A program made the translations under genes and the position numbers. The notes beneath the pieces are model-generated. The model searched no databases, had not been told where the DNA came from, and saw only the letters and a program-made list of their open reading frames with translations. Positions 3,285-64,000 of a stretch of 64,000 bases of DNA are shown piece by piece (position 1 is the first letter of the stretch; each line of letters opens with the position of its first letter). The DNA lies in contig NC_056547.1 in the NCBI RefSeq assembly GCF_910596095.1, forward strand, positions 25,873,647 through 25,937,646, in the 5' to 3' direction. This stretch comes from Thunnus maccoyii. Its lineage: Eukaryota > Chordata > Actinopteri > Scombriformes > Scombridae.

Positions 3285-3860
3285 GAAGTAATGTACTTAA
3301 GTACGATTCTGAGGTACTTGTTCTTTACCCCGAGTATTTCCATCTGATGCTACTTTATACTTCCACCCCACAACATTTCAGAAGGAAATATTGTACTTTC
3401 TACTCCACTACATTTATTTGACAGCTTGAGTTACTTTTCAGTTGAATATTTGACACAATTGATAATATAACAAGCTTTTAAAATACAACATATTGTTAAA
3501 GATGAAACCAGTGCTTTCCAACCTTTTTGGCTTTTGACGTCTTACAAAAAGCAGTGTGTAGTCAGGGTCACATTTCACATGTCTATGAGTTGTTAACAGC
3601 TCCACCAAATAGCGATTTTTCCCTCTAAACTTCTCACATGCTTTCATTTCAATAAATGTTCAAATGATTCAATATTTCACCAAAAATCAACGATTAGTTA
3701 AATATATATCAGTCAGAGGGACCAAACAACTACTTAAACTGCATTTTGCTGCTAATACTTATTTACTTTTACTGTAGTAAGATTTTTCATGCAGGACTTA
3801 AATTGCTGTATTGGTACTTTTAGTTAAGTAAAGGATCTGAATACTTCTTCCACCACTGGG
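3285..3860 (-). repeat. Dispersed AGTGGTGGAA-ended element, copy A (inverted relative to copy B)
   Basis: This is a roughly 576-bp copy of the family seen complete at 15201-16074, in the opposite orientation. The two share long stretches, including an internal segment (3438-3647 here, 15686-15895 in copy B) with only scattered substitutions. One end carries CTTCCACCACTG at 3849-3860; the other is shortened. No intact transposase is present, so it is most likely a non-autonomous DNA transposon. The apparent open frame inside it is only a by-product of repeat similarity. Confidence 0.75.
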
Positions 3861-15200: not shown

Positions 15201-16074
15201 GCAGTGGTGGAAGAAGTATTCAGACCCTTTACCTCAGTAAAAGTACCAATACTGCAATGTAAAAAAACTCCATTACAAGTCAAAGTCCTTCATGGAAAAG
15301 CATTATCAGCTTAATGTAGTAAAGTATTGCAGTAAAAGTAGTGGTTTGGTCCCTCTGACTGATATATTATTATATATGACATCATTAGATTATTAATACT
15401 GAAGCATCAGTGTTGGAGCAGCATGTTACTGTTGTAGCTGCTGGAGGTGGAGCTAGTTTCAACTACTTTATATACAGTTAGCTAGTTTAGTCCAGTGGTT
15501 CCCAACCTAGGGTTCAGGCCCCTCCAAACAGTCACCAGATAAATCTGAGGGGTCGTGAGATGATTAACAGGACAGGAAAGAAGAAAAAACAAAGTTCTGA
15601 TGCACAAATCTGTTTTCAGTTTTTGGATTTTTTCTCTGATCTTTGATTTTTGGTGAAATATTGGATCATTTGAACATTTATTGAAATGAGAGCATGTGAG
15701 AAGTTTAGAGGGAAAAATCATTATTTGGTGGAGCTGTTAACAACTCATAGACATCTGAAATGTGACCCCGACTACACACTGCTTTTTGTAAGACGTCAAA
15801 AGCCAAAAAGGTTGGAAACCACTGGTTTCATCTTTAACAATATGCTGTATTTTAAAAGCTTGTTATATTATCCATTGTGTCAAATCTTCATCTGAAAAGT
15901 AACTAAAGCTGTCAAATAAATGTAGTGGAGTAGAAAGTACAATATTTCCCTCTGAAATGTAGTGAAGTGGAAGTATAAAGTAGCATCAGATGGAAATACT
16001 CAAGTAAAGTGCAAGTACCTCAGAATTGTACTTAAGTACAGTGCAGTACTGTACTTAGTTACTTTCCACCACTA
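15201..16074 (+). mobile_element. Dispersed AGTGGTGGAA-ended element, copy B (complete)
   Basis: This is a roughly 874-bp element with inverted ends AGTGGTGGAA (15201-15210) and TTCCACCACT (16065-16074). It contains the internal segment shared with copy A at 3285-3860. No transposase frame is present, so it is a non-autonomous DNA transposon of unassigned superfamily. Its orientation is opposite to copy A, so the two copies bracket sh3bgrl3. Confidence 0.75.
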
Positions 16075-45318: not shown

Positions 45319-46307
45319 TTGAAGTTTCTATAAATACACTGAGAAGTGTTTCTCGTAATAATCATTAGAAGTTGTCAGAATACACATGGAGGAAGGGAAG
45401 CCATCGGCAGCTTTGATACTTTACTATCAATCAGCTAAAAGTCTCAGTGAATGGCGATTATCCTGCAGAGCATCACAGTATTCAAGACAAGCAGGATCAA
45501 AGGCTTTGCAGTCTGGCCCCCAAACACCCCTCCCCCACCTGGTTACCATACCACCTGGGTAGGTGGGAATGACATGGGACATCAAATTCACTAAACACTA
45601 TTAGTGAGGTGAAATTCCAGCAGCTAGAAATTCACAAAACTCTCAGGAACCTTTATATAAATGAAAATTTCAAGGATAAAGTAGAACATTGAATGACTAT
45701 ACATTTGGTCAGTGTTACAAACTAATATTCATCCCCTGATGTGACCTTTGTACAGAAAACTTATTATTATTATTATATAATATAATAAAATCTCTGCTCA
45801 GGTGTAGGGAGTGTAACCCATTGTTTCCATATTATCATATTAGGTTGACATAGACAAAATAGTGAATATTATGCAGAGAAAGAAAGCTGACAGCTCCTCC
45901 ACTTTCTCCTCCTCATCCATCCCTGATGCCAGCAGAGGCTGAGAGGAAGATCTGGAGGATCGGACAGAGAGCGGGCAGAGTAAAGCCCCTCCCCGCAGAT
46001 CATTGCACTAGTCGATGGTCGTTTTAACTTCATTGTTGAAGAAGAAGCGACGCCCCGCTTAGCCACGGCAAAGGATCAAAAACCCCCTCTGATCAGCACG
46101 ACCCCCAGTTTTGTTCTCATGGAAATCAGACTCTGCCTCCCGGCCACACTCTCCGCAGAGATGCAAAGTTGAAGCGCATTCCCAGCCGGGACAGCAGATG
46201 ATAATGATGTCTTGGAGGAGCTGATCGTTTCATTTACTCCTTCTCTGTGCGTTTCTTTTTTTTTTTTTCGTTTTTTGCTTGCCGCTTTCGGAGTGTTTCT
46301 GTCCAAC
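45319..46307 (+). promoter_or_regulatory. Upstream region of the 5T4-family gene
   Basis: The last 350 bp are clearly more GC-rich than the surrounding sequence, with CpGs and purine/pyrimidine blocks, fitting a CpG-type promoter and 5' UTR. A T run at 46256-46268 lies 40 bp before the ATG. The frame remains open upstream of the ATG but has no earlier ATG. Confidence 0.4.
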
Positions 46308-47736
46308 ATGCTGGTTCTGGCGCAGCGCATTGTTTTCTGTACGTTGCTCGGCTCCGTTTACGCGTCGTGCCCTCCGCGCTGCGAGTGCTCAGAGGCGGCT
46401 CACACCGTGAAGTGCGTCTCCAAAGACCTGCGGAGTATCCCGACCGGGATCCCCGGATACACCAGGAATCTGTTCATAACGGGGAATCAAATAAGTCGAA
46501 TCGGGCCGGAGTCTTTCAAAGGGCTGGATAATGTGACCAACCTGTCTCTGAGCAATAACAGGTAAGACTCCTGTGCCTTACTTTAATGCAAAGCCAACAC
46601 GTTACGCTGCATTCAGGACAAACCTGACCTCTGATACAATGTGTGTCAGTGGCAAAATACTGTTTTCAGTCATCAGGTGTTCCCTCTTCTCCCTGAAATA
46701 TAATAGTTAAGCAGATTTCTACATTTTTGCGCTAGAAACAGCATTTGTGTGCTTCCATGTGTATTAAATTGATGCCCATGTTCAATTTTTACCCAAAGTA
46801 CTGCAATGTCTGCAAAAATCAGTTCATTTCCCCACTTTCTGTATGTATGTTATTATAAGGTGTGAATGACATCTCATAAATCTCCTCAAATCCAGAATTT
46901 GCGAGGTGGAATCCCACACCTTCGCCGGACTCCGCAGCCTCCGCTCTCTGGATCTGAGTAACAACCAGCTGGCTGTCATTCACCCCGAAGCCTTCACCGT
47001 CCTGAACCAGTCTCTGCGGGAGCTCAACCTGAGCCGGGCCCTCTACAACCACTCGTCAGTGATGGACTTGGCCACCTCTCTCCGCTGGAGCTCCCTTGGG
47101 AACCTGCAGGGACTGGACCTGTCTGACAACAGCCTCATCTATTTACCCTCACGCATCTTCTCCCACTTGACAAGCCTGCGGCGGCTCCTGCTTTCCAACA
47201 ACTCCCTAGTGGCCATCCACAACGCCACCCTCTCGGGCCTGGAGCGCCTGGAGGAACTGGATCTGACCCTCAACGCCCTCAAGACGTTGACCGAGGAGGG
47301 CTTACGAGAGCTGGACTCACTTCCTAGAGCTGACCTGCTGCTGGGGGAAAACCCGTTCACATGCACATGCGGAATCGAACCTTTTACCGTGTGGCTCAAC
47401 AGATCACAGGGACGCATTATGGACGCTGAGGAACTGGTGTGTGCCTTCCCAGCCAGCATGAGAAACACGTCCATGCTGGCTGTGGGCATGCTGACTCTGG
47501 GATGCCACCAGAGGGATGCGGGTGCGGACCTTGCTCTGCAGACCTCATACGTCTTCTTGGGTATAGTCCTTGGCTTCATTGGCCTCATTTTCCTCTTTGT
47601 ACTGTATCTCAACCGCAAGGGCATCAAGAAGCGGATCTATGACATGCGTGACGCCTGCAGGGAGGTGTGGGAAGGTTACCACTATCGCTTCGAGATCGAC
47701 TCTGACCCCAGGTTGTCAGGTCTCCATGAGCGCTGA
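46308..47736 (+). CDS. tpbg-like: Trophoblast glycoprotein (5T4/WAIF) family LRR membrane protein (2 exons, 364 aa)
   Basis: 5T4/WAIF proteins are single-pass cell-surface leucine-rich-repeat glycoproteins; family members inhibit Wnt/beta-catenin signalling through LRP6. Exons are 46308-46561 and 46896-47736, joined in phase 2 at an Arg codon. Signal peptide: residues 1-19 (MLVLAQRIVFCTLLGSVYA). LRR N-cap CPPRCECSEAAHTVKC is at 21-36, followed by LRRs such as LRSLDLSNNQL, LQGLDLSDNSLIYLP and LRRLLLSNNSL. The LRR C-cap is at about 237-288 (NPFTCTCGIEPFTVWL to LGC). The transmembrane helix is at about 302-323, followed by LNRKGIKKR and the tail motif GYHYRFEIDSDPRL, diagnostic of TPBG/TPBGL. 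Several N-glycosylation sites are present (NVT, NLS, NQS, NHS, NAT, NRS, NTS). Human TPBG has one coding exon; here an intron splits the LRR array. The exact paralogue (tpbga, tpbgb or tpbgl/waif2) is not resolvable by eye. Confidence 0.9.
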
Positions 47737-48200
47737 CGTGTGAGAGGACAATCACCACTGGTGTATTTTCTTAAAGGAACTGACTTTTTCTAACGCATTT
47801 AACAGTAGAAAAGTGTAAAAAAAAATGTACAGATTTGTCTGTAAATATATACATACAATAGTGTTAATAATCTTTTAGCCTTGTCGGTTAAAGCATGCAC
47901 TGCCCATCGTTCCTCATTACATAACTAATAGTCTTTTTTTAATACAGAATATCTTAGATGGAGACAAATGTTAATACGGGAGTTCATTGATTGATATTTC
48001 TTATATTCATGACTGCTCTTTATGTCCACACTAGAGCAACAATAAGTGCCTGAAGTCAGCAAGGTATTGTTTTTCCTGCAACATAAGAATCCCTTTCTAC
48101 ATGGCAAACTCATTCAGTATTCTATGTCAGATCTTGACTCATATTTAGCTTGTAATAAAAAAAGGAACAAAACGCTGCAATAAAATCCTGACACTATGAA
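47737..48200 (+). other. 3' UTR of the 5T4-family gene
   Basis: AATAAA signals occur at 48154 and 48179 (AATAAAATCC), suggesting a UTR of about 450 nt. A later AATAAAGC at 49251 could give a longer form. Confidence 0.5.
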
Positions 48201-49329
48201 AACAAACCTCTGGGAATTCAAAGCACAATCACTCATTCATCTTTGAACCGTTTCAAGCCCTTTGGTCCCCCGTCCTTCAGCCCCAGGGTGCCAGAGAGGA
48301 ATTAAGCCTCCAAAAGCTTTTCCAAAGCTCTCCTAAAATCACCACTCTGCTCTTCTCTGGCTTGTTGCATTGGAAGGGGGACAATTCAGCGCAGACCAGC
48401 GGGAATATCCTAGCCCCCTCTTTTTTTTTTTTCTCCCCTTTTTTTTTTTTTTTTTTTTTTTTCATGAAACGTTGCTTTGTTTCAACTCCTTGAGTTTTAT
48501 TGTCAAAATGATGAGAACCAGTCGTAGGCCCAGGCCGCTGAAAGCAATCTCCCTCCTCCTTTAAAGACAACAGCCGCTCTGGAGGCTCTTTGAAGGAAAA
48601 GTCTCCACGTTTTTCTGTTTAGGGGATTTTTTTCCAATGATAAGATACAGATGATTCTGAAACACCAGCTACATTGTTTCATTCAGTAGTTTGCTCTGAC
48701 CAGTTGAGGAGGGAGCCTTATGAAACTGAAGAATATGCTCTTCAACCTTTTGGTTTTTCTCTTCTATGTCAAGAAAAGTGTCTTTTTAGTGGAAGTTGTC
48801 GTGGAAGATTGGCACTCAAATCCAGAGATGTATGTCTTACATTTTACATGCATGTTTAATCAAATTCAAACCATACATTGAATGAATCACAAGCCAAAAA
48901 CACGACCGTCTTCTTATCTTAAATGTCATGTGTCATCCCTGTTTTTCTAAATGGCTACATTACAAATACAACTCACTTCTTTGTGGCCTTTTAATGCTAC
49001 AAAAGTCAGACACACAGACAGAGAGAGGGGATGGCGAGCTGCCATTCCCCAATGTGTTTATTGCCTAAATTACTAGCTATCTATGTTTTAGGAAAGTGGG
49101 GAAAGGAGGCCTGGAGTTAACTGAAACAGCCTCTCATTGTTCGAAGCCAAAGTAGCATCTTCGTCCTCTCAAGATGTTCTCCAAACTGCTCTGATAGCAA
49201 TCCAGAAATGTTTATAACATGGAGCCATTTTACTGCATGTGTAATGACAAAATAAAGCTTCAGAAAGTCCTGATGTCTGTATGCTCATTTAGCGCAAATG
49301 TAATCTTGTAGGTTATGAAACAGCAGAAA
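48201..49329. other. 3' flank of the 5T4-family gene
   Basis: A T-rich block at 48421-48462 is followed by moderately GC-rich sequence. Two CTTTGAA (TCF/LEF-like) words occur at 48242 and 48588. No gene was recognised. Confidence 0.4.
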
Positions 49330-49810
49330 TACAGGGTTTCAGTAGGTATTATTTCTCCGAGCTGCAGAACCACATTAAGACGGGCATTTACTCGCTGAGG
49401 AGAAAACAATTGAGGCTCGTACGCAGTCACAGAGGGCAGCTCAGATGGCCAGACGCCTGAAATAAGCTTTGTTTTCCAGCGCCAAAAGATGCCTTGTGAT
49501 ACTCATTCTCTTTCTGTTTTCACAGACGACCATTATGCCGGCGCGTAATAGGATTCACTCATGGTGACAAAGTTGAGCGCTCTGATCCAGCTATTGTTAA
49601 AGTGTCATCATTCATGATAATTGCCTGTGGGAGAAAATCCCAGGGGAAGTTTTCATTTGCTATTACTAACTATTATTAACATGTCACAACCGGGGCATTA
49701 AGCCAGCTACGGGTTATTGGTGTCAATTGGCGGAGCAGCAGAGAGAAGAAAGATTATTGCCTGAATGTCATTACTTCCGTCTTCGGTCATTAAAGTGTGC
49801 ATTAGGAGCC
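49330..49810. promoter_or_regulatory. Possible conserved noncoding element downstream of the 5T4-family gene
   Basis: The sequence texture changes: no simple repeats, no transposon ends, balanced composition and many homeodomain-like TAAT/ATTA words (for example CATTCATGATAATTGCC, TATTATTAACATG, CGGTCATTAAAG). No open coding frame fits. Developmental genes in fish often have such enhancers. This is an impression from texture only. Confidence 0.25.
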
Positions 49811-51600
49811 GTGCCTTTTTTTTGTCTTTTTATGAGTCAGGCTGTTTGAAAAATACTGTATATGGCCTGTTTTCTATAGGCTCTGCAGGATTGTCTCAGC
49901 AGGAATGCAGTGAAAAGAGAAAAACCCTACAAATGCATCCAGACGCTTTCTATTACTCCCTGTGCAAGAAAGGCTTCTTAAAATCAGAAAAAAAATACCA
50001 ATTGGTGTTCTTTAGTATGTTGTACATGTCTGATTAAAAGATCACATCTTTATTTCAACTTTGCTTGCCATGACTTGAATTCCCACAAGCTATTTGTTAC
50101 ACCACTGAGGTTTCTTTCGAGGAAGCAGTTTTAAAAAACTTTAACAGCTTTATGTTGCTGTAGTCTGTGCAGCATGTGGTTTCAGCAATTGGAAAAGGGT
50201 AAAATACATATTTGAAGTTTTTCTTTTCAGTTTTCAGAACACTCCACTGTACCACAGCAGGCTTTTTGTTTCATACGCCTTCTGTCTCTGGGAACATCTT
50301 GGCGCCATTACATGGGTTTAATGGCCATGATAGGGAATATGCCTTAAAAGTGAACACCACATCTGTGAGGAATTGAACATGTTAGAAAGAGACCACAACA
50401 GTCAGCAGTATGACGACAGAGACAAAGGGGCATCTACCCCCTCCACTGGCATGGTATGACAAATGCAGCTGTGTCTCTCTCAACTAAGGACACATGTCAT
50501 CATTTACATTTGCCATCACTAAACACGACACAGTCATTTGATACTTTCTGCTCTACATGACACACTTTTAAAACCAAACCGTCCACAGCACAGAGAAACC
50601 AATTCTTGTCTCCCTCCTCTTCTATCTTCTCTCTACTTTTAACAATGATCTTGAGAGATCTTGTGAGATCAATGAATTCACTGGCCCTGCTTCCTGTGCA
50701 TCGCCTATCCATCATGTCCAACCAGTCTGGTCAGTGAAGGTGGCGACCAAACCGCAGAGGTGGTTCCAGTGGGGTATTACTCATTGTTCTGCTGCTCTCT
50801 TGATCAATGTGACTAATTGTGTTTGCCAGAGGATGCATGTGAGGAGGAGTTGGTACAGCTGGCCCACTACCCATTAAAGCCAACTGGCTTCTCATTTATC
50901 ACTTTCATAAAGGCTGGATCTAACAACACACAGTCAAACACACACATATACAGTATGTGCACACACACATACCTGAATCATAGTACTTATTTAAAGTTGA
51001 ACTGAAATTGAAATTTATTTTTGCTAAGAAGTCAGTACATCCTTGGGGTTTCTTTTGACTTGTGCACCTATTTGGTCAAAATTGCAATTACCAAACTACC
51101 AAAAAGAAGAAATTCAAGTTTTATTGTGTTATTTAATTTATATTAGTGTTCTCCAAGGGGCGTAAATTCTTTATTCTGACTGACAATGTCAGCACTGGTG
51201 CAATTTTGGTGTTGACGAGCACTGAAAATAGTTTGTAATGTCACTTCAATTCCATCGAACAGACTTTCAACCAGCTGCAGAGCTGATGTTTGGTCATTGC
51301 TTTGTCCCATCTGTGATTTCAACACTTCCTACGTTACTCTGGGACTTTACTCTGTGTTGTGATTGGAGTCACTGGGTAACACACAGAATGCTGAGAATAA
51401 AGGACTACCCTGTGCTGTGAGTTTTGAAAATCTAGTTATTTGTCATTACCGCAGCTGAACCCATGACAAAGAGACAACAGCCAGCTAGCTAGACCTTGTT
51501 TCTATTATCACGGACAAACAAGAAAGAAATGGTGTGTTCAGAGGTCATAAATTTCCACATTGAAAATTCCTAATTCCGAGCTTGATGTGTTCCACTACTC
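49811..51600. other. Intergenic spacer
   Basis: No gene, RNA or full repeat was recognised. A short CA-type run occurs at 50938-50970. Confidence 0.5.
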
Positions 51601-51625
51601 ACGACACAAAGTGCAAACAATCAAC

Positions 51626-51730
51626 ATGGCTGACTGTGAGAAACTCATCTTCTTATGGCAGGCAGCATATGAATATTTGCAACGTCAGCAGAGTTTAATT
51701 AAATACATCAGTGAAAAAGAGGAGGATAAG
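51626..51730 (+). CDS. Short exon candidate, possibly transposon-derived
   Basis: ATG in a favourable context (CAACATGGC) starts 35 codons, MADCEKLIFLWQAAYEYLQR and onward, ending at a strong donor (GATAAG then GTAAGTCAC at 51731). The peptide is charged and helical. No following exon could be matched. It may be the 5' exon of a domesticated or decaying transposase. Weak. Confidence 0.25.
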
Positions 51731-52722
51731 GTAAGTCACTAGATATTTTACATGACATGTCGGAATGTTACACACAATAGCCTACCAAGTACCAGTAATG
51801 ATACATGTTTCTGATAGCCTGTGTCATTTATTAATATAGCCTAAGTGAACAGTCTTCATTTTGAGAATTTTATTAATTCAACACCATTAGAAACCTACTT
51901 CTCTTGGATACTGCCATATTGAGTGGCATCAGAGCATCTGCTTCTCGGTGCATGAAATTGGCCCAAGTTTTCCAGTCAGAGTTCCAATTTCAAGAGCTGT
52001 TCCAACTTACTTTTTCAAGTAGGAGGGCGTACATTTTTGAGTTCCGAGTTGTCTGGAAAACAGCAAAAGTGCTGGGGCTGCCAAACTCAGGAGGTGAGGT
52101 GTGAAAAAAAACATGACTGAAAAGTAGCGTGTGGTAGGAATCAGTGCTAACGTTACCAAACCAGGCTAACTGGCTGCCAGTTTCAAATACGAACTTAGCC
52201 ACATGATGGCTCCTCCCGAATGTTCAATGTTATGAAGGAACAGACGTCTGAAATTGCTAACAATAACCAACACTATGTGGGCTTGTTGAAAAAAGAGGAA
52301 AATGTCTTGTATTAGTGTTCATAAGCTATACAGGAACAGGCTTCATTCAACGGTGACGGTGACGGTGTTTATACATGTACAAACAAATCTTAAAGTCTCT
52401 GCTCTGAAACGCTAGGGGTGTGTCCACTGAAGGCACTGAAAACACGGCCCAACTGAACAGCCTCTGAGTTAACAATGCTCGTACCAAACTCCCGTTTAAA
52501 ATAGGTCTTGTTTGTAGGTGTACGGTAAGCTACATGGATGATATTTTAAAAATAAAGTAACGTTAGGAGCCACTGTTTAATTCGGGACATATTTTATATG
52601 TAAATGTGGACTTGTTTCAGTAAAAACTTAAATGACTAGTTAACAAGTGAATCATCACCAATCACTGTTATGTTAAATTGTTGTTTTTTTCAATGGAGTT
52701 CAGTGCACTTAATATTACTCAC

Positions 52723-52955
52723 CTCTGTGCTGGAAAGTCCTTGGCAGCTTTGTTGTGGCCGTCACCCTTGGAGCAAAAGCTTCTCACGCTGTACTTTTTG
52801 GTGAAGTGCTGCCCAGCAAATGCTCTCCTTCTGCACAGCTGGTGCTGAAGCTGAAGCCGCGGGCGGTGGCTAGTGTCAGCCACTGTCAGTGCCACATCCG
52901 TTGACTCTACCTGTCCTCCCAGCTGAACAGCTGGTGCTGTGTCTCCACCTGTCAA
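52723..52955 (-). CDS. Exon candidate ending in a good donor, unrecognised
   Basis: On the minus strand an open stretch of 77 codons ends FCSKGDGHNKAAKDFPAQ at a consensus donor (CACAGAG then GTGAGT at 52717-52722). It is locally GC-richer than its flanks. There is no in-frame ATG and no clear acceptor at its 5' side, so it may be part of a dead transposon rather than a gene. Confidence 0.2.
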
Positions 52956-55900
52956 CGGATGCTTTAGCAGGGCTTAAAATAACTCCTTGACTGCTAACAT
53001 TAATGGAAGATGGCCCCATTCACAAGTAAATGAAAGTTTGTAAAACTACCCAGTGTAAAAATAGTAACTATGAGTACGTTCACTACGTACATATGTTTAT
53101 ATAGTGGGGGAGGGGTCATGCTAGTAACCCCTCTATGTCATAGAGCCACCATTTCAAGCCTGCCCAAAAAATCCTAAACACAGAAATGCTGAAAAACAGT
53201 TACACGGTGTAACTCCACAATTCAGTTCTACATAGTTCACAGTCTTTTCACGTTTTCAACAATTATTTTCTAACATGCATAATGTGTTTAATAAGAAATC
53301 TCTGATTTTCATTTACACAGACTTTAAACACTGAATCTTCAAACTGAACCTTGTTGACACTGAATGACAGGGCCTTACTGATGACTGAGAGCACTGTTGT
53401 CAGCTCAGCTGCAATTATTCTTGTTAAAAGTCACTGTCAAACATTCTGGTGGTATGAACAGTGATGCTTTCATTCACTGATGTATGTACTGAAGTGTATT
53501 TGAGTGGTGATGCAATCATTTAACATAGAATAAAAGTGAACTAACTACATAATGACTACAAATCTGATCTGAATGAAACGTTTGGCAAAGTGATTCGTAA
53601 TTTCTATGTCAATGGGGCACCAAAGAAGTTGACAGCATGTCTCCTTGCAATGCTGGCTCTTATCTGTCAGTCAATCACTGCCATGGGAAACAGCCACCAT
53701 GAAGGGTGAAGCTTAAACACAGTTTCCACAAATAACACAACAGTTAGATCCTTTTTAGAAATATGGAAAAATCTGCACAATAGTTCCAGCATAATTATCG
53801 TTACACAAAAAATTTGCAGAATTCAAATTTCACTTTGACTTTTATAAAACTCACAATGCAAATGGATTTGATTTGCGTTTAATTGTATAATCTATCAGTC
53901 CCCATTTGGTATGTTTACCACAGAGTTTGTACAACATGTATATGTCCACGTTTCATAATGGGATTCTTTATGCTCTTGAAATTTAAACAAAAACCTCTTG
54001 GTGCATGACCGCAATGGATCCCCAGACCCGAGGAAAATGAGAAACAAATGCGCTCAACAAAACAAAGTCCTGTCTCATATGAAAGAAAGACTCATGTAAA
54101 ACACTCCACCACAACAATGCAGCTTCCCTCTGAAGTCTTTATGACCGCGTCTCCATTGATCTCTGAATTGACTACAACTGTAAACGTAGCAACAGCACGG
54201 CTCTGCCAGTCCTTGTGGGCCCCCCCCCACCACCCCCGTGCCTTCCCCTCCTCAGGGGCCTCAGAACAGAGAGTGTCCTGAAGCCTTGTTGTGGGCGCCG
54301 CTGTCCTCCAGCTGGCCACGAATCAGTCTCTCAATCCATGTGGCTTGTAAGAAGTTTTGTTTTGTTGTTGCTGTGGTTGTTTATAGGAGGATGAGGTTAG
54401 GGAGTTTTCAATTAGCAAGACATATTTCCCTCCATGTCCCATCCTGCATCTTTCTCTCAAACTCTGAATGAGCTCCTAAAGCTGCGGCTTACTTCACGTG
54501 CAGAAACTTAAAGAAAAGCGTTTTCCTTCTCTGTTTTATGTTCTTACACAGTCCCTCAAGGGACAACAACACAGTATAAAGATGAATTGTTTCGATGGAG
54601 ACCAAACGTAATGAAGTCCTTCGATTGATTAGTCTTACCAGAGGAATAAGCCACAAGATGATTCATTAAAGACTTTCTCCTCTGGTACTCTCAGAGAAAC
54701 GGAATAAGGCCTGTTTGCCGGTTGATTATAAATGGCCTTGACCCGTTTTAAAGAAAGGACAAGATACTCACAACTCCTGAACTACTTCATCATCTGCTTC
54801 ATGCATCAATGGTTGGGTTGGAATTGAGCAGAGAGACCAGCAAATACAATAGTCTAGCTGGAAACAAGAGTCATTTGAAGACACTTGGGATCAAATCTTT
54901 CTTCAGTAGACCTACAATGATTCATATACAATTACTTAATTTATTGCTTGCTATAGTTTTCTTTCAGTTTAAGCCATTTAGAATGGTAGGCATTTCAGCA
55001 GCTTTGTTTTTATTTTTTGAGGGTTTTTCTTTTTACTAATTGGGTCTAATCTTTATTACTTTGGCCACCATTTCTAACAGCAATGGTAACATTGTTCTCA
55101 CCATTCAGTTAAAAAAAAAAAACAGGTTAGCCAAACGTATTTGGAAAAGAAAATTATAGTGAACAATATACCAATAAAATAATGATATTTATGTTTATAC
55201 AATATGATTTGGCCTTTGCTGGCTTTTTGTATGACAGTGAGTTGGTATACCTGAACCATGTGGCTGCTCTCGAGAGGCTTGATGTCAGCGAAGTGCTCTA
55301 GAACTTAATTATAGTACAGCAAGATAACTATCTGCCCTAAACAGGACTTTGCCATTCATAATCAGCTTGTCAGCCGAGTCGAAACAACTTCACATACCTT
55401 CATATTAAACTTTCTGGGAATTAGTTAACTTCAGCTTCAGGACATTGCATCTGTAAAGTGGAATGGAAAGAGTGCAACCCATCTGATGATGAATCCTCGA
55501 GCTGCTCGTGGAATGCGTTAGGTGTGAACTCTCCATAGGTAGTTTGACCTCTCGCCTTCCAGGAGAGAGGAGACGTAAGCTCATTATTATTACCTTCATT
55601 ATTTCAAATGCTGGACCAGATGCCGGAGCGGGAGGGGGCCCAATGCACCCAACAGGGATCTAAGGCACCTGATTGGTCAGGAGGAGAAGAGCGGTTCGGA
55701 GGCCAAAGGGTAGATTCTTCCGGAGAAGAGACACCATCTGCTGACCGTCTTTCTCTGACTTTACATCATCTTGCTGTAACAAGGCCTTTATGGAGATGAT
55801 GCTGCTCATGTTGAATGAGGACATCCAGCACTGTATGTTACATGATGAAATATAATAAATCTCATTACTGTAAATTAGACAAATACTGTGTATCTGGATG

Positions 55901-56929
55901 TTTAAATTATTCAATGATTCACATATCAGATATCATGTAGGTTCTTCCAAACATAAATTTAAACAAGTCTGACAAACATGTAATGCAATGAATATTTTAC
56001 ATTACTTTTTTCCTTTGGTTAAACTTAAATCATAAGGCAGATGTTAATCAAATTATTCTTAAGCACACACAGCTTCACTGTGCACAGTGATGTGTGTGCA
56101 GACTTTGTGTTTTCATATTCATCTGCTTAAAAGGGAAAGTCTGTTTTCAAATTAAATCTTGTGACTCGTACCTACAAGCATGTTTTTGTGACATCATAAC
56201 TAGTCTGGAAGCCAGTCATGAAATTATATAATTATATTTACTTCCTCATAGATTCTGGATTTTTCAGTGAGGGAGGAATTGGTGTAATTTTTAGAATTTT
56301 CTAACCAGGAAATTTATTTTTTTTTGTGGGAAAATAATATCAGACAAATTATTATTTAGAGCAGAGTATTTTTAAGTGTCATGAAATATGTCTGGAAGGG
56401 ATCTTTAACATTTTTTAAGGGTGAAACAATATATTTATGACCAATTTTCAATTATTTACATCCAATAGGAACAACTGGGTTTGGGGCTGAGTGCCACAGA
56501 CAGGGAAGGGAAGTCAGAAAATATGAAGAGCAGACTAATACTTTGTTGGTGTTGGTTTTTTTATGGAATTTATTGACTATAAGAAAATATAGAGTATAGA
56601 ACTATATGGAATAAATGACCAAAAACTGCAGTTGCATACACCTGGACAAGTTCTATTTGCTGAAGAATACCGTTAGATATTGTTGAAAACTCCATAAAAG
56701 CTACTAAGTGAATCTTAAGTTTGGAATATTATATCACAGATATGTACTTTTGTAGTCATTTAAATGATAGCAAAGCAAAGAACTATAGGCTTGATGTGGA
56801 TGGAGAGCATAAACAGAGAGAAAAAGACATATTTCAAGATTCAAGTAACACAATATAGACACAGCCTCTATCTGTGTTACTGACCCTTCTCACAAATATC
56901 CCCACATCCTGCATTGCTCTGTACATAAA
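52956..56929. other. Long intergenic spacer, no supported gene
   Basis: Mostly AT-rich. Open frames of 60-85 codons occur on both strands without ATG, splice or domain support. A CCCCCCCCACCACCCCC tract lies at 54222-54238. Confidence 0.5.
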
Positions 56930-57159
56930 TTAGATGACGACACAGTGTTTGCCTTCTCCTCCATCACACTCCATTTGTGGGTCTGTATCTAGCTTAGCAT
57001 GACCTAACACGGTATAACCTTTGCAGGAGAAAGGCTCCTCAAATGAGCATGTCATCCACTTGTCCACAGATCGGGGGTCTGTGCAGACCGAAGTGTATTT
57101 CCTTCTTTGGAAATCGCCAGCAGAAAATGTGCACGTATGAGACATCATGCAGGCAAATT
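56930..57159 (-). CDS. Cysteine-rich terminal-exon candidate, unrecognised
   Basis: An excellent acceptor on the minus strand (CTCTCTTTCAAATTCAG, AG at 57160-57161) is followed by 75 codons and TAA at 56930-56932. The peptide has seven Cys (FACMMSHTC, SVCTDP, WMTCSF, FSCKGY, MECDG, KHCVVI), as in a secreted or extracellular disulfide-bonded domain. The intron is phase 1. A possible preceding exon ends at 57826 (GGCAG then GTATGA) and reads in phase as VQDTLPGNLA, but its own 5' border is uncertain. Family unknown; the DPRSVDKW stretch is faintly chemokine-like, but the rest does not fit. Confidence 0.35.
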
Positions 57160-58479
57160 CTGAATTTGAAAGAGAGAAATCATCCACAAGGAGAAAAGAG
57201 TCACCTACTTTGATGAATAGATCTCATTTACAGTTTGATTTATGTCACCCTTCCATGTTTTGTGTATGTTTTTTTTTAAAAAGCCTGCCTCCAGTAATGC
57301 CTGTGTCATCAGGACCACTTCTGCTGATTCCAACAGAGGACTTTCACTTGCTCCATTCGCTCATATGAATGTTGATAGGAGTAATGGAAAGAATTCAGAA
57401 AGGAGGAAACTGTTCCTGCAAAAAGTTCCTCTGCGCTATTTCCTCTGACAGGAAATTGTGTCTTTGATCTAAGCCACCACACTCATCTGGTCATCGCATG
57501 CGAGGTGTCACTCCTTCCTACAGCGGAGAGGGAGGAAATTTGCTATCACCACTCGCCCATATGAATGTCTTAAACTTGAGCTGCTAAAAGATGAAAAATA
57601 AGATTGCAAAATTGAATAAATCTGGGGTTAAGAAGTGCAGGCATGTGCCCCAGAAAGTAGGACAAAATGACAGATTTACTTGTCGCCTAGAACGTGCTTA
57701 GAGCCAGACAGACAGACGGACAGACAGACTCCTGCACTTGTATCATGCTTCTCTTGGCAGCAGGAGATTGTCATTAATGAACATTATTGACCAAGCACAG
57801 TCTGGGATAGAGATTCATACCTGCCAGATTACCAGGGAGTGTGTCCTGTACATGGCTTAGTGTGTGTGTGTGTGTGTCACCTACACTGACAGTATAGAGG
57901 GTCATTTTCATGCTGAGTGCCCCACATGGTCACAGATCTGTCAAATAGACGCAGGAAGCTGATGATATCACACTTACATGCAAATATGACATCATGCATT
58001 TTGCTCATTATTTCATGCAGAGAAACAGAATTCAAATAAAGAAGTGATGTATGATGTGGATGTTGTGGAATGGGAATTACAGTCTGTGATTCATATTCTG
58101 CAAACAGAAGGTTGAAACATGCTGATCTGGATGTGTTGTTTGTCACAGTTAGGGTCGACTGCATCATTACTGCAGTATGCCGCCTGGGTCTATTCAGCGT
58201 CAGGGGGTGCAGGAGGCATCATTAATAATGTTAACAAGGCCATCATGACTTGACATGATCTTTCTCAGGGTCAGGCTTGATGCACAGAGGAGAAATCTCT
58301 GCAAAAAAGCAGACAATAGCTATTAACTGTTACTCTATGTGTAGAAAAAGCTTTATCAAGCTAAATAAAGCTTTTACTTCCCATTTTTTGCATATAAACA
58401 GAAGGAAAATGTGATAGAAAGAGGTGAAAGCTAAAAAGGTGAAAATCAGCAGATATCTTCCCATCCTGACACCACAGCA
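57160..58479. other. Spacer between exon candidate and the secreted-protein gene
   Basis: Contains a GACA-type repeat at 57704-57728 and a TG run at 57861-57878. Apart from the tentative exon near 57826, nothing was recognised. Confidence 0.5.
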
Positions 58480-58630
58480 GCAGGCACCTGTAGACAATCA
58501 GCTCATTAAGCAGTGATTGGTTGCAGGCTGCAATAAATGCTACCTGTCTGCTACACACACGCAGAGCAAGTAGCTTCAGGGTAGTTGGGCTACTGTTGCG
58601 TTCACTGGGCTGCACGCTTTGGCACACAAA
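58480..58630 (+). promoter_or_regulatory. Promoter of the secreted serine-rich protein gene
   Basis: Within 150 bp upstream of the ATG are an E-box CACCTG (58486-58491), an inverted CCAAT (ATTGG, 58516-58520) and an AATAAAT TATA-like word (58532-58538). A start near 58560 would leave a 5' UTR of about 70 nt. E-boxes of this kind occur in oocyte-gene promoters, but that link is speculative. Confidence 0.35.
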
Positions 58631-60110
58631 ATGGCTTGTGGAGTTCATTTGGGGTAAGTTGTTGCAGCTATTTTAAGTATGTGTTGAGTTGCTGTTAGCT
58701 GTCCCATTTTCTTCTGACCTTGATGTCTTGTTTGCTGTGCAGGATCTTTCTGATTTGCTTAGTTCAAGCAGAGCATGTACGCTGTTCATGGGCTACACAA
58801 GGTGAGCAGAACACAATTATGTCAAGTCTGTACATTTAGTGCTGTGGTCTGCTAGCTGTGGATTCATACTCTTGTTTCTCTTGCAGCTCAGGGACAAAAC
58901 AGCAACACATATGTTGGCTTCTCGCAACAGGATAGTGGACTAAGAAGACTTGGTGGCAGCTATCTCCAGAATCAATTCAGACAGGCCTCTGTTGCTCCAG
59001 GCTCAGCCCAAAGCAGTAGCTTCAACACGGACACTGGTTACAGGCAGGGACTTTCCAGTAGTGGTTACACACATAGTGTTTCACAGCCAGTTCAAAGCGG
59101 CTATACTTCAGTCAGGTTAGTGCAGAGCAGCTCAGTGTCAAAACCCAACTGGAGAACGACAAGCTTGAATCAGTTAAATGCTCAAAAGGTGCCCAAAAAC
59201 CAGTTTGACCTTTCTGCTCCTATTTCAAGTGGTGGTTCTGTCAGTAAATTCAGTGTTAAAAAGCAGAATGATCCTACTGTCGGCAAGAGCAGAACTTGGC
59301 CAGTTAAGCAGGGTATACAGCGTACTAACCAGTATCTGTCCAGCAGTTCTGCATCCATTCTGGGTCCTAGGGAAAGCTACTCCTTCAGGCCAGCCTCCCA
59401 CCAGTCTGCAGCACAGAAACCTCCCAGCACTGCTTTCGCAACACCAGCATACTATGGGCAAAGTTCATCCATGCTAAATCAAAAGCATGCTCCGAGAGGC
59501 TTCTCTCACAAGTCTTCCCACTTGTTCAGCCCAAGAGCACCTGCACCTGCATCACAGCGCAAATATGTTCAGATGCAAACATCAGCCAGTGCCCCTGCTA
59601 GAAGATCTTCAAGTCGCAGCTCTAAAGCATCTAAAAAGCCTTCCAGTTTCTCATATTCTCAGAATGAGAGGACTCGACACAACCCTAGCCAGACTGAGGC
59701 TGGAAACCCATACAATACCTACAAGCCTACTTCCAACAGGGCCTCAAGTCACAGTCTGAAGGCACCTACAAGCAGCAGAACTGGAACCTCTGCTCAGAAC
59801 TTCGCCCCGACTGAAATTCACAGCATCCCTCAACGTTTCGGTGGCTTTGCTATTAGACGGCTAAAAGAGCCTGACCAGAAGGAAGTAAGTGTCCAGAAGC
59901 CACAGCAGACCTACACAGCTCCCTCACAACAGCTGGCATCTTACAAGCCACCGGTCCCAAGTGTTCATCAGGAGAGCAAATGGAAGAGGGTCAGGCCACA
60001 TTTAGGACAACTCACAGGTGAGTATCTGATCACTTCTCATTCTGCTTCTGTATGTTCCAGAATATTTCTAATTTGTCTCTCTCATAGGTGCAGCAGGTGT
60101 CCTTGGATGA
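58631..60110 (+). CDS. Unrecognised secreted, serine-rich basic protein (4 exons, 411 aa)
   Basis: I do not recognise this gene. Exons 58631-58653, 58743-58801, 58887-60017 and 60088-60110 have clean GT..AG borders (GTAAGT, GTGAGC, GTGAGT donors) and close to exactly 1,236 nt. The ATG opens a typical signal peptide, MACGVHLGIFLICLVQAEHV, likely cut near residues 17-24. The rest is low-complexity: rich in Ser, Gln, Pro, Ala, Lys and Arg, basic, and without cysteine after residue 22, so probably disordered. Notable patches are ARRSSSRSSKASKKPSSFSY (about 265-284), RFGGFAIRRLKEP (about 344-356) and WKRVRPHLGQLTG (about 393-405), followed by AAGVLG from the tiny last exon. ATTAAA at about 60130 may signal polyadenylation. 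The architecture resembles rapidly evolving matrix, egg-coat or mucosal proteins, which is inference. The gene structure is well supported; function is open. Confidence 0.8.
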
Positions 60111-60950
60111 ACGTGTTTTGAAAAACTTATTAAACTTAAATCCTATCTTGTGTTAATTCATCCCCCATTATGTGGTACTGAATGTCATAGCTTGGATGCA
60201 CATGAATGTAGACTTGGTGCCATCTAGTGTGTAAAAGATGTGTTGCAAAATGGATAATCTAAAACAGGCAGTCTAGAAATGTCCCACATCACTGCAAATA
60301 CAAGTTTCTTTAACTGAAACTAAACATCTACTTGGGAGACATTTGGGCAACTGAGAATCTGACTTATTGAAAGGTGTCTTTACTCCACACACTGCATCAA
60401 ATGTTTTTGTAAATGAATGCAGAGGGCTCCTTTAAAAATAAAACTCGCTGTGTATATACAACTTGAAGCAGTTAATGCTGTTAAACTTAGAACATTGACC
60501 TGCCAACTGTTTATCACTGTTAAAACTTTAAAATCATGTTGCCTAGAGTGTGCACTGACAGCCATTGTCAGTAAGACCTGCATCAAATAACTGAGAATAG
60601 TGCTGTTGCTTTCAACTAAAACTCAACAGCTGAACAATAAGGGTCAATGGTCAAGTTCAGCACAAACTACAGCCTCAAATGGCCATAACCAGCTCTCAAA
60701 CAGATTAATTTAAATTATTTTCATGGAGGTAGGCTCTATTGGAAGTTTGTATTAATTTAGGTGTACAACAAACTGACAAGTGAGGATCAGCCAAGTGTTC
60801 ATGTATGCATTTTTAAAACATGTCCACACTGGGATCTAGCAATGAGCAGATGAATATATCTAGTGCTCCATGTAGGAGAAACCATCAGAAACTGTGGATG
60901 ATGACATCCCTTCAGTGATGCACCATAAGAATGGGGAGCGAACAAGGAAG
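60111..60950. other. 3' flank of the secreted-protein gene
   Basis: AT-rich sequence following the likely ATTAAA polyadenylation signal. No further gene was recognised. Confidence 0.5.
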
Positions 60951-61640
60951 TTACCCAGATAAGTCAAGCTCTTGGTGGATTAGTTTTGGAAGCCCTATAG
61001 CCACTACAAATATGACAATTACAATGAGTGTATAATTTGGCCAAGATTTAAAATATAAAGAGAAAAACAGAGGTCCAAGAACAGAGCCTTGAGGTACTCC
61101 ATATTTAACATCTGAATATTTAGATGTATTATAGCAGTGTTCTTTCAGATAATTACACCAAAGAGACATTTAGTCTAAGAGTATACAGTGATCAATAGTG
61201 TCAAAGACTGCACTGAGATCAAGTAGTAGAAGCACAGAGGTCAAATCTGAATTCATGGCAAGTAAAGATCATTTACCACTCTAGTTAAAGCAGGTTCAAT
61301 GGAGTGACAAGACAGATTACTGTTTGATATATGGGTCAAAAGTTGTTGAGACACAGCTCTATCTAGTATTTAGGAAGAATGGAAGATTAGAGACTGGTCA
61401 ATAGTTATGTAAGAGACCCTGGATCGAGGTGAGGTTTCTCTGTAGAGGTTTACCAAAAGCTGTCATAAAACTTCTGGGGACAATGCCAGTTGTAAGTGAT
61501 AAATTAACAGTATCTAGCATTGCAGGTCCCAGGAAAGGCTAGAGGTCTTTGAAAAATTTAGCTGGTAAAGGGTCAAGGTTTAGAAGCTGACACCAACGTA
61601 GACAGTGTTTCAAGAGAGATAGTCACAAAGTTTGTAAGAA
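60951..61640 (-). mobile_element. Decayed non-LTR retrotransposon, reverse-transcriptase fragment
   Basis: On the minus strand the stretch encodes YGVPQGSVLGPLFFSLYF, the signature of reverse transcriptase around the palm domain in L2/Rex/CR1-like LINEs. Upstream, broken frames still read LLDLSAVFDTIDH-like and NYRPIS-like patterns. Frame breaks and stops are frequent, so it is dead. Confidence 0.8.
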
Positions 61641-63690
61641 CAGGGCCTATCTGGGACTGATTATATGAACATGAATGTGGTACTACAGATTCTGCAGAAG
61701 CAACTGGAGATTAACTAATTTTTTTTAATCAATTTTACCACAGGAAAAAATGTAAAAACTCATTTTTGATAGGTGAGCAGCTAAGAGACTCTTTAGTTTG
61801 TTTTGGTTTTAGCTTTTTAGGTTTTAGCTTTTTAGTGTTTAGCTTCAGTGTCAAAGAGAGATTACTATTATTATATGTAAGATGATCAAGAAATATTTTG
61901 AAAGTTTCTCTATTTAAGTTGATTTCTGAACATTGACACGAGCAGATTGTGAGAACTACTTTTGTGTGTGTGCATGTGTGAGGAGCTTCCCAAACATACC
62001 ACCACAGAGGAGGCACATAGTGACAGCTTCATCTGCACAGGTCAGTTTGGGATGCTACTCATCCTTCATGCACTGGTTTGGGAAGCAAGTTTTGTGCACA
62101 AGACAATTTCACACAGGTCCATCACTTATATAAGATTAATCACAAAAATGTAGTCGTATTATTAACAAAAGGTACATGTATTTTGGTGTTGTTGGAATAT
62201 GCAGTCCTTTATAGCACTTGTCTTATTATAAATATAATGATACTGTATACTTCTATTGCATTGAATAGGGACTAATTTAATAAATTGGTACTCAGTCAGA
62301 TTTAGTTACATTCACATGTGGTAGTAATTTCTCATTATTGAATTATTTTTTATGACACTGTGTGAACTGTGTTTGCCTGATGATGTCACAGTCTCCAACA
62401 CCTCCATGGTTTGCAATAAGCTGCGTAAAATACCGATACAGTGGAACAGTATGATGTGCACAAAAATGAATGTGTGATAATGCACGCTAGGAATCTTGAG
62501 TTTCTGTGCAGACTATAGTCGCTTATTATTCTCACAGTTTATGGTGCAAACCATAAAGTGTGCAGAAGACGGTAGCATCCTGAACAGAGGACGTGCACAT
62601 GCAGTCACACTCACAGTTGAACGACAAACCACCAAACCACCCCTCTGTTTTCACTCAGAAGGAAAATACATGTCAGTGTTATGAACATCAAGTGCAAAGG
62701 TCCTAAATGACACTAAATTGAGCTTTCTTTGTCCAATAACAGTCAGACACTCAAGCTCATAAAAACATGAACATGGATCTGATGATTCGTTTATAGGAAA
62801 ATCTGAAAATGAGTTCACAAACTGGATAAATTAAACCTGAGGTAAACTCAGCCGTCCACACAGAGGGAACATGCCCTGGTTTGTTTAATGAGCAGTCTGC
62901 AGATCTTATATGACCTCAGTTGTGCGTCACCATTCTGTTTCCATGGCTTTTACTGATGCACGTGAAAGAGAGAGATTTTAGATATAAATGGTTGATTTTT
63001 CCATGCAGCTTTATGATTTGCCATTGTCTCAAAACTGTCATAAATGTAGCCTATAAGTCCAAAGTCTCTAAAGAAGACACATGTGATAATAACTTGTGCG
63101 AATAAGATCTGTGTCTTTGCACAAGTTATTGTCTTGTGCAAATAGTATATTAATTGTGTTCATAGGTTCGCCAACTTGCTTTCACTGAATAACTGTGCAA
63201 ACACGATCCAATCAAATCAATTCTCAGGAAACCTTTTCCTGTAGCATCTGATGCATCCATTCACAGCATGGCTGCAGCAAACACCATGTTGGGTCAGAGC
63301 ACAATTAGATGTAAAAACTGAACCATGTTAACACAGTTTTAATGCAGTCTAAATGTGCAATATACTATATATACTACATACTGTATAAGGAAAAAGAATG
63401 TCTGCAGTTAGTGGTATAGGCTGAGTTCTTGAGATGTGTATATATGCAGCTATTTTTCTGTTTTCACATATTTTTGTTTGGCCTCATGATGTTTTATGAT
63501 TATTTTTGAACACATAAAACTGTCAATTTACATTCAGAAATAGTCTTTAATTCTAGTCTGCCAATATGAAAATAATATTTGCTCCTCAGTGCCTAACACA
63601 GACATCAGATTTGTCCTCAATTAAGTGTAAAATATTTCACAAGCTCATTTATCGTTCATCTCCTCACTCCCATTTTAACAATGCTTATAA
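61641..63690. other. Spacer
   Basis: AT-rich, with tandem TTTTAGGTTTTAGC-like units at 61790-61850 and an imperfect hairpin at 63085-63133. No gene was recognised. Confidence 0.5.
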
Positions 63691-63800
63691 GGTAATAAGT
63701 TGAGCATGTCCTTGCATGTCCAGAGCAGTGATTGGTTCAGGGCTTGTTTGTGTGTGTGCTATATAAATAAGAACTGACTTGACTTGACCCATATATTTTT
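63691..63800 (+). repeat. Probable LINE 3' tail
   Basis: The string GTGCTATATAAATAAGAACT followed by TTGACTTGACTTGAC (63757-63787) is the typical ending of a fish L2/Rex-like LINE: a TATAAATAA stretch then short TTGAC tandem units. Confidence 0.5.
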
Positions 63801-64000
63801 TTTATGTATTGTCACGCCACTGTGCTGTTTTGACCAGATGAGGGCGCCATGCCTTCAGAAGAGAAAAGGGAACCAGCTGAATTAGAAGATGAATCACATT
63901 CATTGACTACATATTAGTTAAATATAAATAAAAGCAAATAAAAGTATAATACATGACTATACCCATGTGTTCAGTAAGTTGATACACAAAAGGCAAGGCA
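63801..64000. other. Right edge, no feature seen
   Basis: Short AT-rich remainder with AATAAA-like words; nothing recognised. Confidence 0.5.

Follow-up and report, generated by a model that had tools for sequence, protein, structure and literature searches.

On the forward strand of the window, by which we mean the whole 64,000-nucleotide stretch of Thunnus maccoyii DNA analysed here, four exons between positions 58631 and 60110 join into a clean frame of 1236 nt that encodes 411 amino acids and a stop codon. The three introns measure 89, 85 and 70 nt, are all of the GT-AG type and have phases 2, 1 and 1. The exons and the candidate signals around them are as follows.

58485..58490, strand not given: CACCTG E-box, possible promoter element, unproven
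58532..58538, plus strand: AATAAAT, TATA-like, about 100 nt upstream of the ATG, unproven
58631..58653, plus strand: coding exon 1, 23 nt; the ATG is preceded by A at -3 and followed by G at +4; initial portion of the predicted signal peptide
58743..58801, plus strand: coding exon 2, 59 nt; remainder of the predicted signal peptide and beginning of the mature chain
58887..60017, plus strand: coding exon 3, 1131 nt; main body, rich in Ser, Gln, Pro, Lys and Arg, with the FGGF and WKR islands
60088..60110, plus strand: coding exon 4, 23 nt; G completed, then AAGVLG and the stop
60437..60442, plus strand: AATAAA, likely polyadenylation signal, 327 nt past the stop codon

An earlier note on this DNA had proposed a gene of four exons joined in phase over exactly this span, with a large exon open for more than 1.1 kb and a 23-nt last coding exon that adds AAGVLG, and the recomputed model agrees on all of these points. 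The same note called the splice sites good. The three introns all have GT-AG pairs, but donor 1 and acceptor 1 are only moderate. Donors 1, 2 and 3 match 7/9, 8/9 and 9/9 consensus positions and are equalled by 3.7%, 0.5% and 0.08% of all GT dinucleotides in the window. By pyrimidine score, acceptors 1, 2 and 3 are equalled by 10%, 0.45% and 4.2% of all AG dinucleotides, so that the second and third are better than the first. Two variants of the 3' end can be read from the DNA. Exon 4 begins with GTGCAGCAG, and splicing to further AG acceptors, 6 or 9 nt farther on, could shorten the C-terminus; if intron 3 were retained (60018-60121), the frame would run on to a stop ending at 60121.

Outside the coding exons, an additional ATTAAA is present at 60129. 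The window's own count predicts 0.19 CACCTG boxes per 300 bp, so one box is weak evidence. The single box and the TATA-like element are too common to indicate the oocyte or any other tissue. About 0.8 kb past the gene, a short frame on the minus strand (60954-61169) contains YGVPQGSVLGPLFF and is probably a reverse-transcriptase fragment, judging by an RVT_1 match that stays under the cut-off (E 0.028).

The large exon lies inside a stop-free run of 421 codons, which is the longest of the 64-kb window; the second-longest, with 371 codons, belongs to a PAQR gene. When the 1.4-kb region was shuffled 2000 times under a Markov model and read in six frames, no open run exceeded 249 codons, and the probability of finding no stop in 376 codons is 2.4e-8 from base composition alone. 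The remaining five frames of exon 3 contain 9-23 stops each. Furthermore, the period-3 power of exon 3 is 4.56, compared to a maximum of 3.41 among 553 overlapping control windows placed outside five stretches of known genes, although three known genes reach higher values (9.7-13.3). Synonymous codon usage, scored as log-odds trained on the neighbouring genes, gives -0.18 per codon for the gene as annotated; the value is higher in three of the other five frames. The frame, the splice sites and the period-3 signal support a real protein-coding gene, and we regard 58631-60110 as a real gene whose codon bias is weak.

The first residues of the protein suggest that it is secreted. Residues 5-15 are strongly hydrophobic (best 9-mer hydropathy 3.28), the best 11-residue hydropathy at the N-terminus is 2.77 compared to at most 1.25 beyond residue 25, and the V-Q-A|E context fits the -3/-1 rule for a predicted signal peptide of 17 residues. 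Judged by hydropathy and cleavage context alone, this is likely a cleavable signal peptide. The earlier note had found it convincing; the hydrophobic stretch and the cleavage context agree with this, but of the 863 open 20-mers in the window that start with ATG, 54 also reach a hydropathy of at least 2.5, which tempers that assessment. As that note had also described, the predicted mature chain is serine-rich, cysteine-poor and basic: among its 394 residues are 73 Ser (18.5%), 39 Gln (9.9%), 31 Pro and one Cys, and 23 Lys and 26 Arg give 49 basic residues compared to 13 Asp and Glu, for a pI of 10.8 and a net charge of about +37.

Several sequence features were looked for in the protein. The predicted mature chain has no N-glycosylation sequon where 3.9 would be expected (also none in 219 of 20000 protein shuffles), RGD, SxE and RxxR motifs do not occur, and self-BLASTP at E≤10 returns only the identity, that is, no internal repeat. 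When exon 3 was submitted to AlphaFold as a single sequence, the mean pLDDT was 43.2 and 0 of 376 residues reached 70, a result to be read with the fact that single-sequence AlphaFold also scores many folded proteins low. In blocks of ten residues, the last 66 residues of exon 3, which include both islands, score 47-56 compared to 35-49 elsewhere. These values fit an intrinsically disordered exon-3 product without proving it.

The genes around the locus were named by eye from their open frames, with Pfam support where an E-value is given. Within the window these are TRAPPC9 (E 0.13; a second scan gave nothing at E≤0.01), an exon of the SH3BGR family (E 6e-17), the PAQR gene (HlyIII, E 2e-46) and a TPBG-like LRR gene at 46173-47733. 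Downstream, among the frames listed for about 150 kb, follow ARID1A (BAF250_C, E 2.5e-125), a brachyury-like T-box gene and NUDC. TPBG is mentioned in PMC8110480. For two of these genes, the closest additional copies in the genome (TPBG-like gene, 53% identity; ARID1A, 68%) both lie on contig C10, about 40 kb apart, which is what the teleost genome duplication would lead one to expect. On that contig, ARID1A is followed by frames that by eye look like PIGV and ZDHHC18, and the TPBG-like gene by frames read as KDF1 (DUF4656, E 6.9e-79) and NR0B2 (hormone-receptor domain, E 3.9e-15); further on come GPATCH3 (no Pfam match) and GPN2 (ATP_bind_1, E 8.7e-50), names likewise read by eye. On the contig of the window (C15), neither PIGV nor ZDHHC18 was noticed by eye in the stretch from the TPBG-like gene to ARID1A (47733-64000 and downstream), and this copy of the region looks rearranged. 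We take the neighbourhood to resemble human 1p36.11; the gene thus sits in a rearranged copy of a 1p36.11-like neighbourhood.

Two further observations concern this region. The TPBG-like gene of the window is split after the residues LSNNR (46562/46870) and its C10 relative is split at the identical words, so that the two copies apparently have this intron in common; a third relative is a single open frame of 396 codons. In addition, two 73-codon frames about 12 kb apart, at 3441-3659 on the minus strand and 15674-15892 on the plus strand, are very similar by eye (TFIEM.ACEKFRGKN...) and are probably inverted copies of a repeat element.

Searches for relatives of the protein returned nothing beyond its own gene. 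For exon 3 (376 aa; the 35 residues of exons 1, 2 and 4 were outside the scan), Pfam and PDB each gave 0 matches at E≤1, and NCBIfam gave only noise far below the cut-offs (E 0.19 and 0.51). The earlier note had recognised no known family and had named a profile assignment to a well-known one as grounds for dropping its proposal; for exon 3, neither Pfam nor NCBIfam provides such an assignment. The 782-Mb genome of the fish itself showed one copy: a search with exon 3 at E≤0.001 scored 5 candidates, one with the last 79 residues of the protein at E≤10 scored 2, and neither gave anything but this gene. On C10, no relative was found at E≤20 in the 19.8 kb 3' of the TPBG-like gene (best 0.32) or in the 20 kb 3' of ARID1A (best 0.21), both best values being noise; the remainder of that region was covered by the genome-wide searches alone. 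Among the phage, viral and prokaryote collections, where a match could only indicate contamination, phages gave none, viral contigs gave one pattern match that tblastn did not confirm, and prokaryote genome contigs gave 41 pattern matches of which tblastn confirmed 0. Six peptide strings of the protein had no match in the papers searched, and the papers found on egg coats, the gene name, orphan genes and synteny contained nothing on this gene in titles and the beginnings of abstracts. Since other fish genomes are not among the collections, and a protein of this kind may be missing from Pfam and PDB, the absence of homologues says little about youth or restriction to fish. In sum, the analysis confirms what the earlier note observed and supports part of its interpretation: the locus is a probable gene for a secreted protein that matches none of the families searched.

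What might such a protein do? Its composition, its likely secretion and the absence of any predicted fold suggest that it has a structural or binding role in an extracellular coat or matrix, and the duplicated ARID1A and TPBG-like neighbours suggest a teleost origin. Our tentative reading, to which we give a probability of roughly 0.4, is that the locus is a teleost gene, single-copy as searched, whose secreted, disordered, cationic and Ser/Gln/Pro-rich product would serve such a coat or matrix as a structural component or filler. The positive charge could bind acidic glycoproteins or glycans, and transglutaminase cross-links between Gln and Lys may fix the protein in place, as in hardening egg coats. 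The most plausible site would be the egg envelope or an epidermal surface coat. Gene structure, composition, the single copy and the missing family match for exon 3 are the observations that this reading builds on. Counted against it are the codon usage, which is not gene-like, and the absence of the internal repeats that are typical of many matrix proteins. Furthermore, nothing in the protein sequence marks a transglutaminase site, and a non-overlapping scan of the protein found only three Q..K or K..Q pairs.

Rather than standing outside the known families, the protein could be a fast-evolving member of one of them (mucin-like, SCPP-like or an egg-coat accessory protein), with a kinship that is visible only through orthologue profiles or synteny. 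We consider this possible but doubtful. Homology can be hidden by a composition of this kind, and many such fish proteins are annotated merely as uncharacterised; however, the intron phases and the missing SxE differ from SCPP genes, and exon 3 has no ZP module, the protein no internal repeats and no N-glycosylation sequon. It is less likely that the gene was born recently in this lineage and is transcribed and translated with little or no role for the organism. Such an origin would agree with the lack of relatives in the collections and in the roughly 40 kb searched around the duplicated neighbours, and with a codon usage unlike that of the neighbours and a period-3 signal weaker than in three conserved ones. 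Yet 411 residues, three introns and a signal-like start make this a long frame for a newly born gene, and the absence of relatives carries little weight in collections of this scope.

That there is no gene at all, and that open frame and splice sites arose by chance, is very improbable: the negative codon score and the three frames that outscore the gene's own would fit, but the open run, the splice sites and the period-3 signal all speak otherwise. We give hardly any credence to a small secreted peptide precursor, in which R-FGGFAI-RR-LKEP would be cut out at basic residues like the [YF]GGF message of opioids and nociceptin. In its favour, FGGF occurs once and is followed by RR, and some [YF]GGF arises in 71 of 20000 protein shuffles, but the motif was picked after seeing it. 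Against it, FGGF is preceded by a single Arg and no dibasic pair in a protein without RxxR, and lies in a predicted mature chain with one Cys and no Pfam match for exon 3.

Secreted proteins restricted to one lineage readily escape notice, as they diverge in sequence more quickly than family libraries can follow. Should orthologues and expression confirm the gene, it would be a well-defined test case for the role of disordered basic proteins in fish eggs or skin, since the searches found no paralogue that could compensate for it. At present, it is one more probable gene without family assignment, of moderate interest.

When comparing the gene to known systems, we find partial likeness to four of them. 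Precursors of opioids and nociceptin have a cysteine-rich N-terminal domain and a [YF]GGF core with dibasic sites on both sides. The protein shares FGGF followed by RR, but it has QR ahead of the motif, lacks the cysteine-rich N-terminus, with one Cys past the predicted cleavage site, and has no family match; the genome's 13 matches to the opioid family (PF01160) at E≤1, five of them above the cut-off, are all at other places. Actinodins, proteins of the fin-fold fibres, are described in PMC13120675 as fish-specific structural proteins that were lost in tetrapods, and And2 carries 10 repeats according to the same paper. Membership is contradicted by the self-comparison of the protein, in which no internal repeat was found.

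The resemblance to genes of the SCPP family (secretory calcium-binding phosphoproteins of enamel and bone) includes predicted secretion, probable disorder, a Ser/Gln/Pro-rich composition and small first coding exons. SCPP genes have phase-0 introns throughout and SxE phosphorylation motifs, whereas the gene described here has phases 2, 1 and 1, no SxE in 411 aa and a strongly basic product, which speaks against membership. Of the egg, skin or bone matrix that the earlier note had suggested, the bone part is thereby weakened. With the ZP proteins and choriogenins of teleost egg envelopes, coats that become cross-linked at hardening, the protein shares predicted secretion and Gln/Pro-rich segments. 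It differs from them in that exon 3 has no ZP module (PF00100) and the mature chain has one Cys; a ZP-domain egg-coat protein is further contradicted by the missing Pfam match for exon 3 and by the 78 ZP-domain matches of the genome, which all fall at other loci. The bolder proposal, for which the odds are long, is that the protein would be a new coat component beside the ZP proteins: teleost-specific, disordered, cationic, built without a ZP module and cross-linked in the egg or skin coat.
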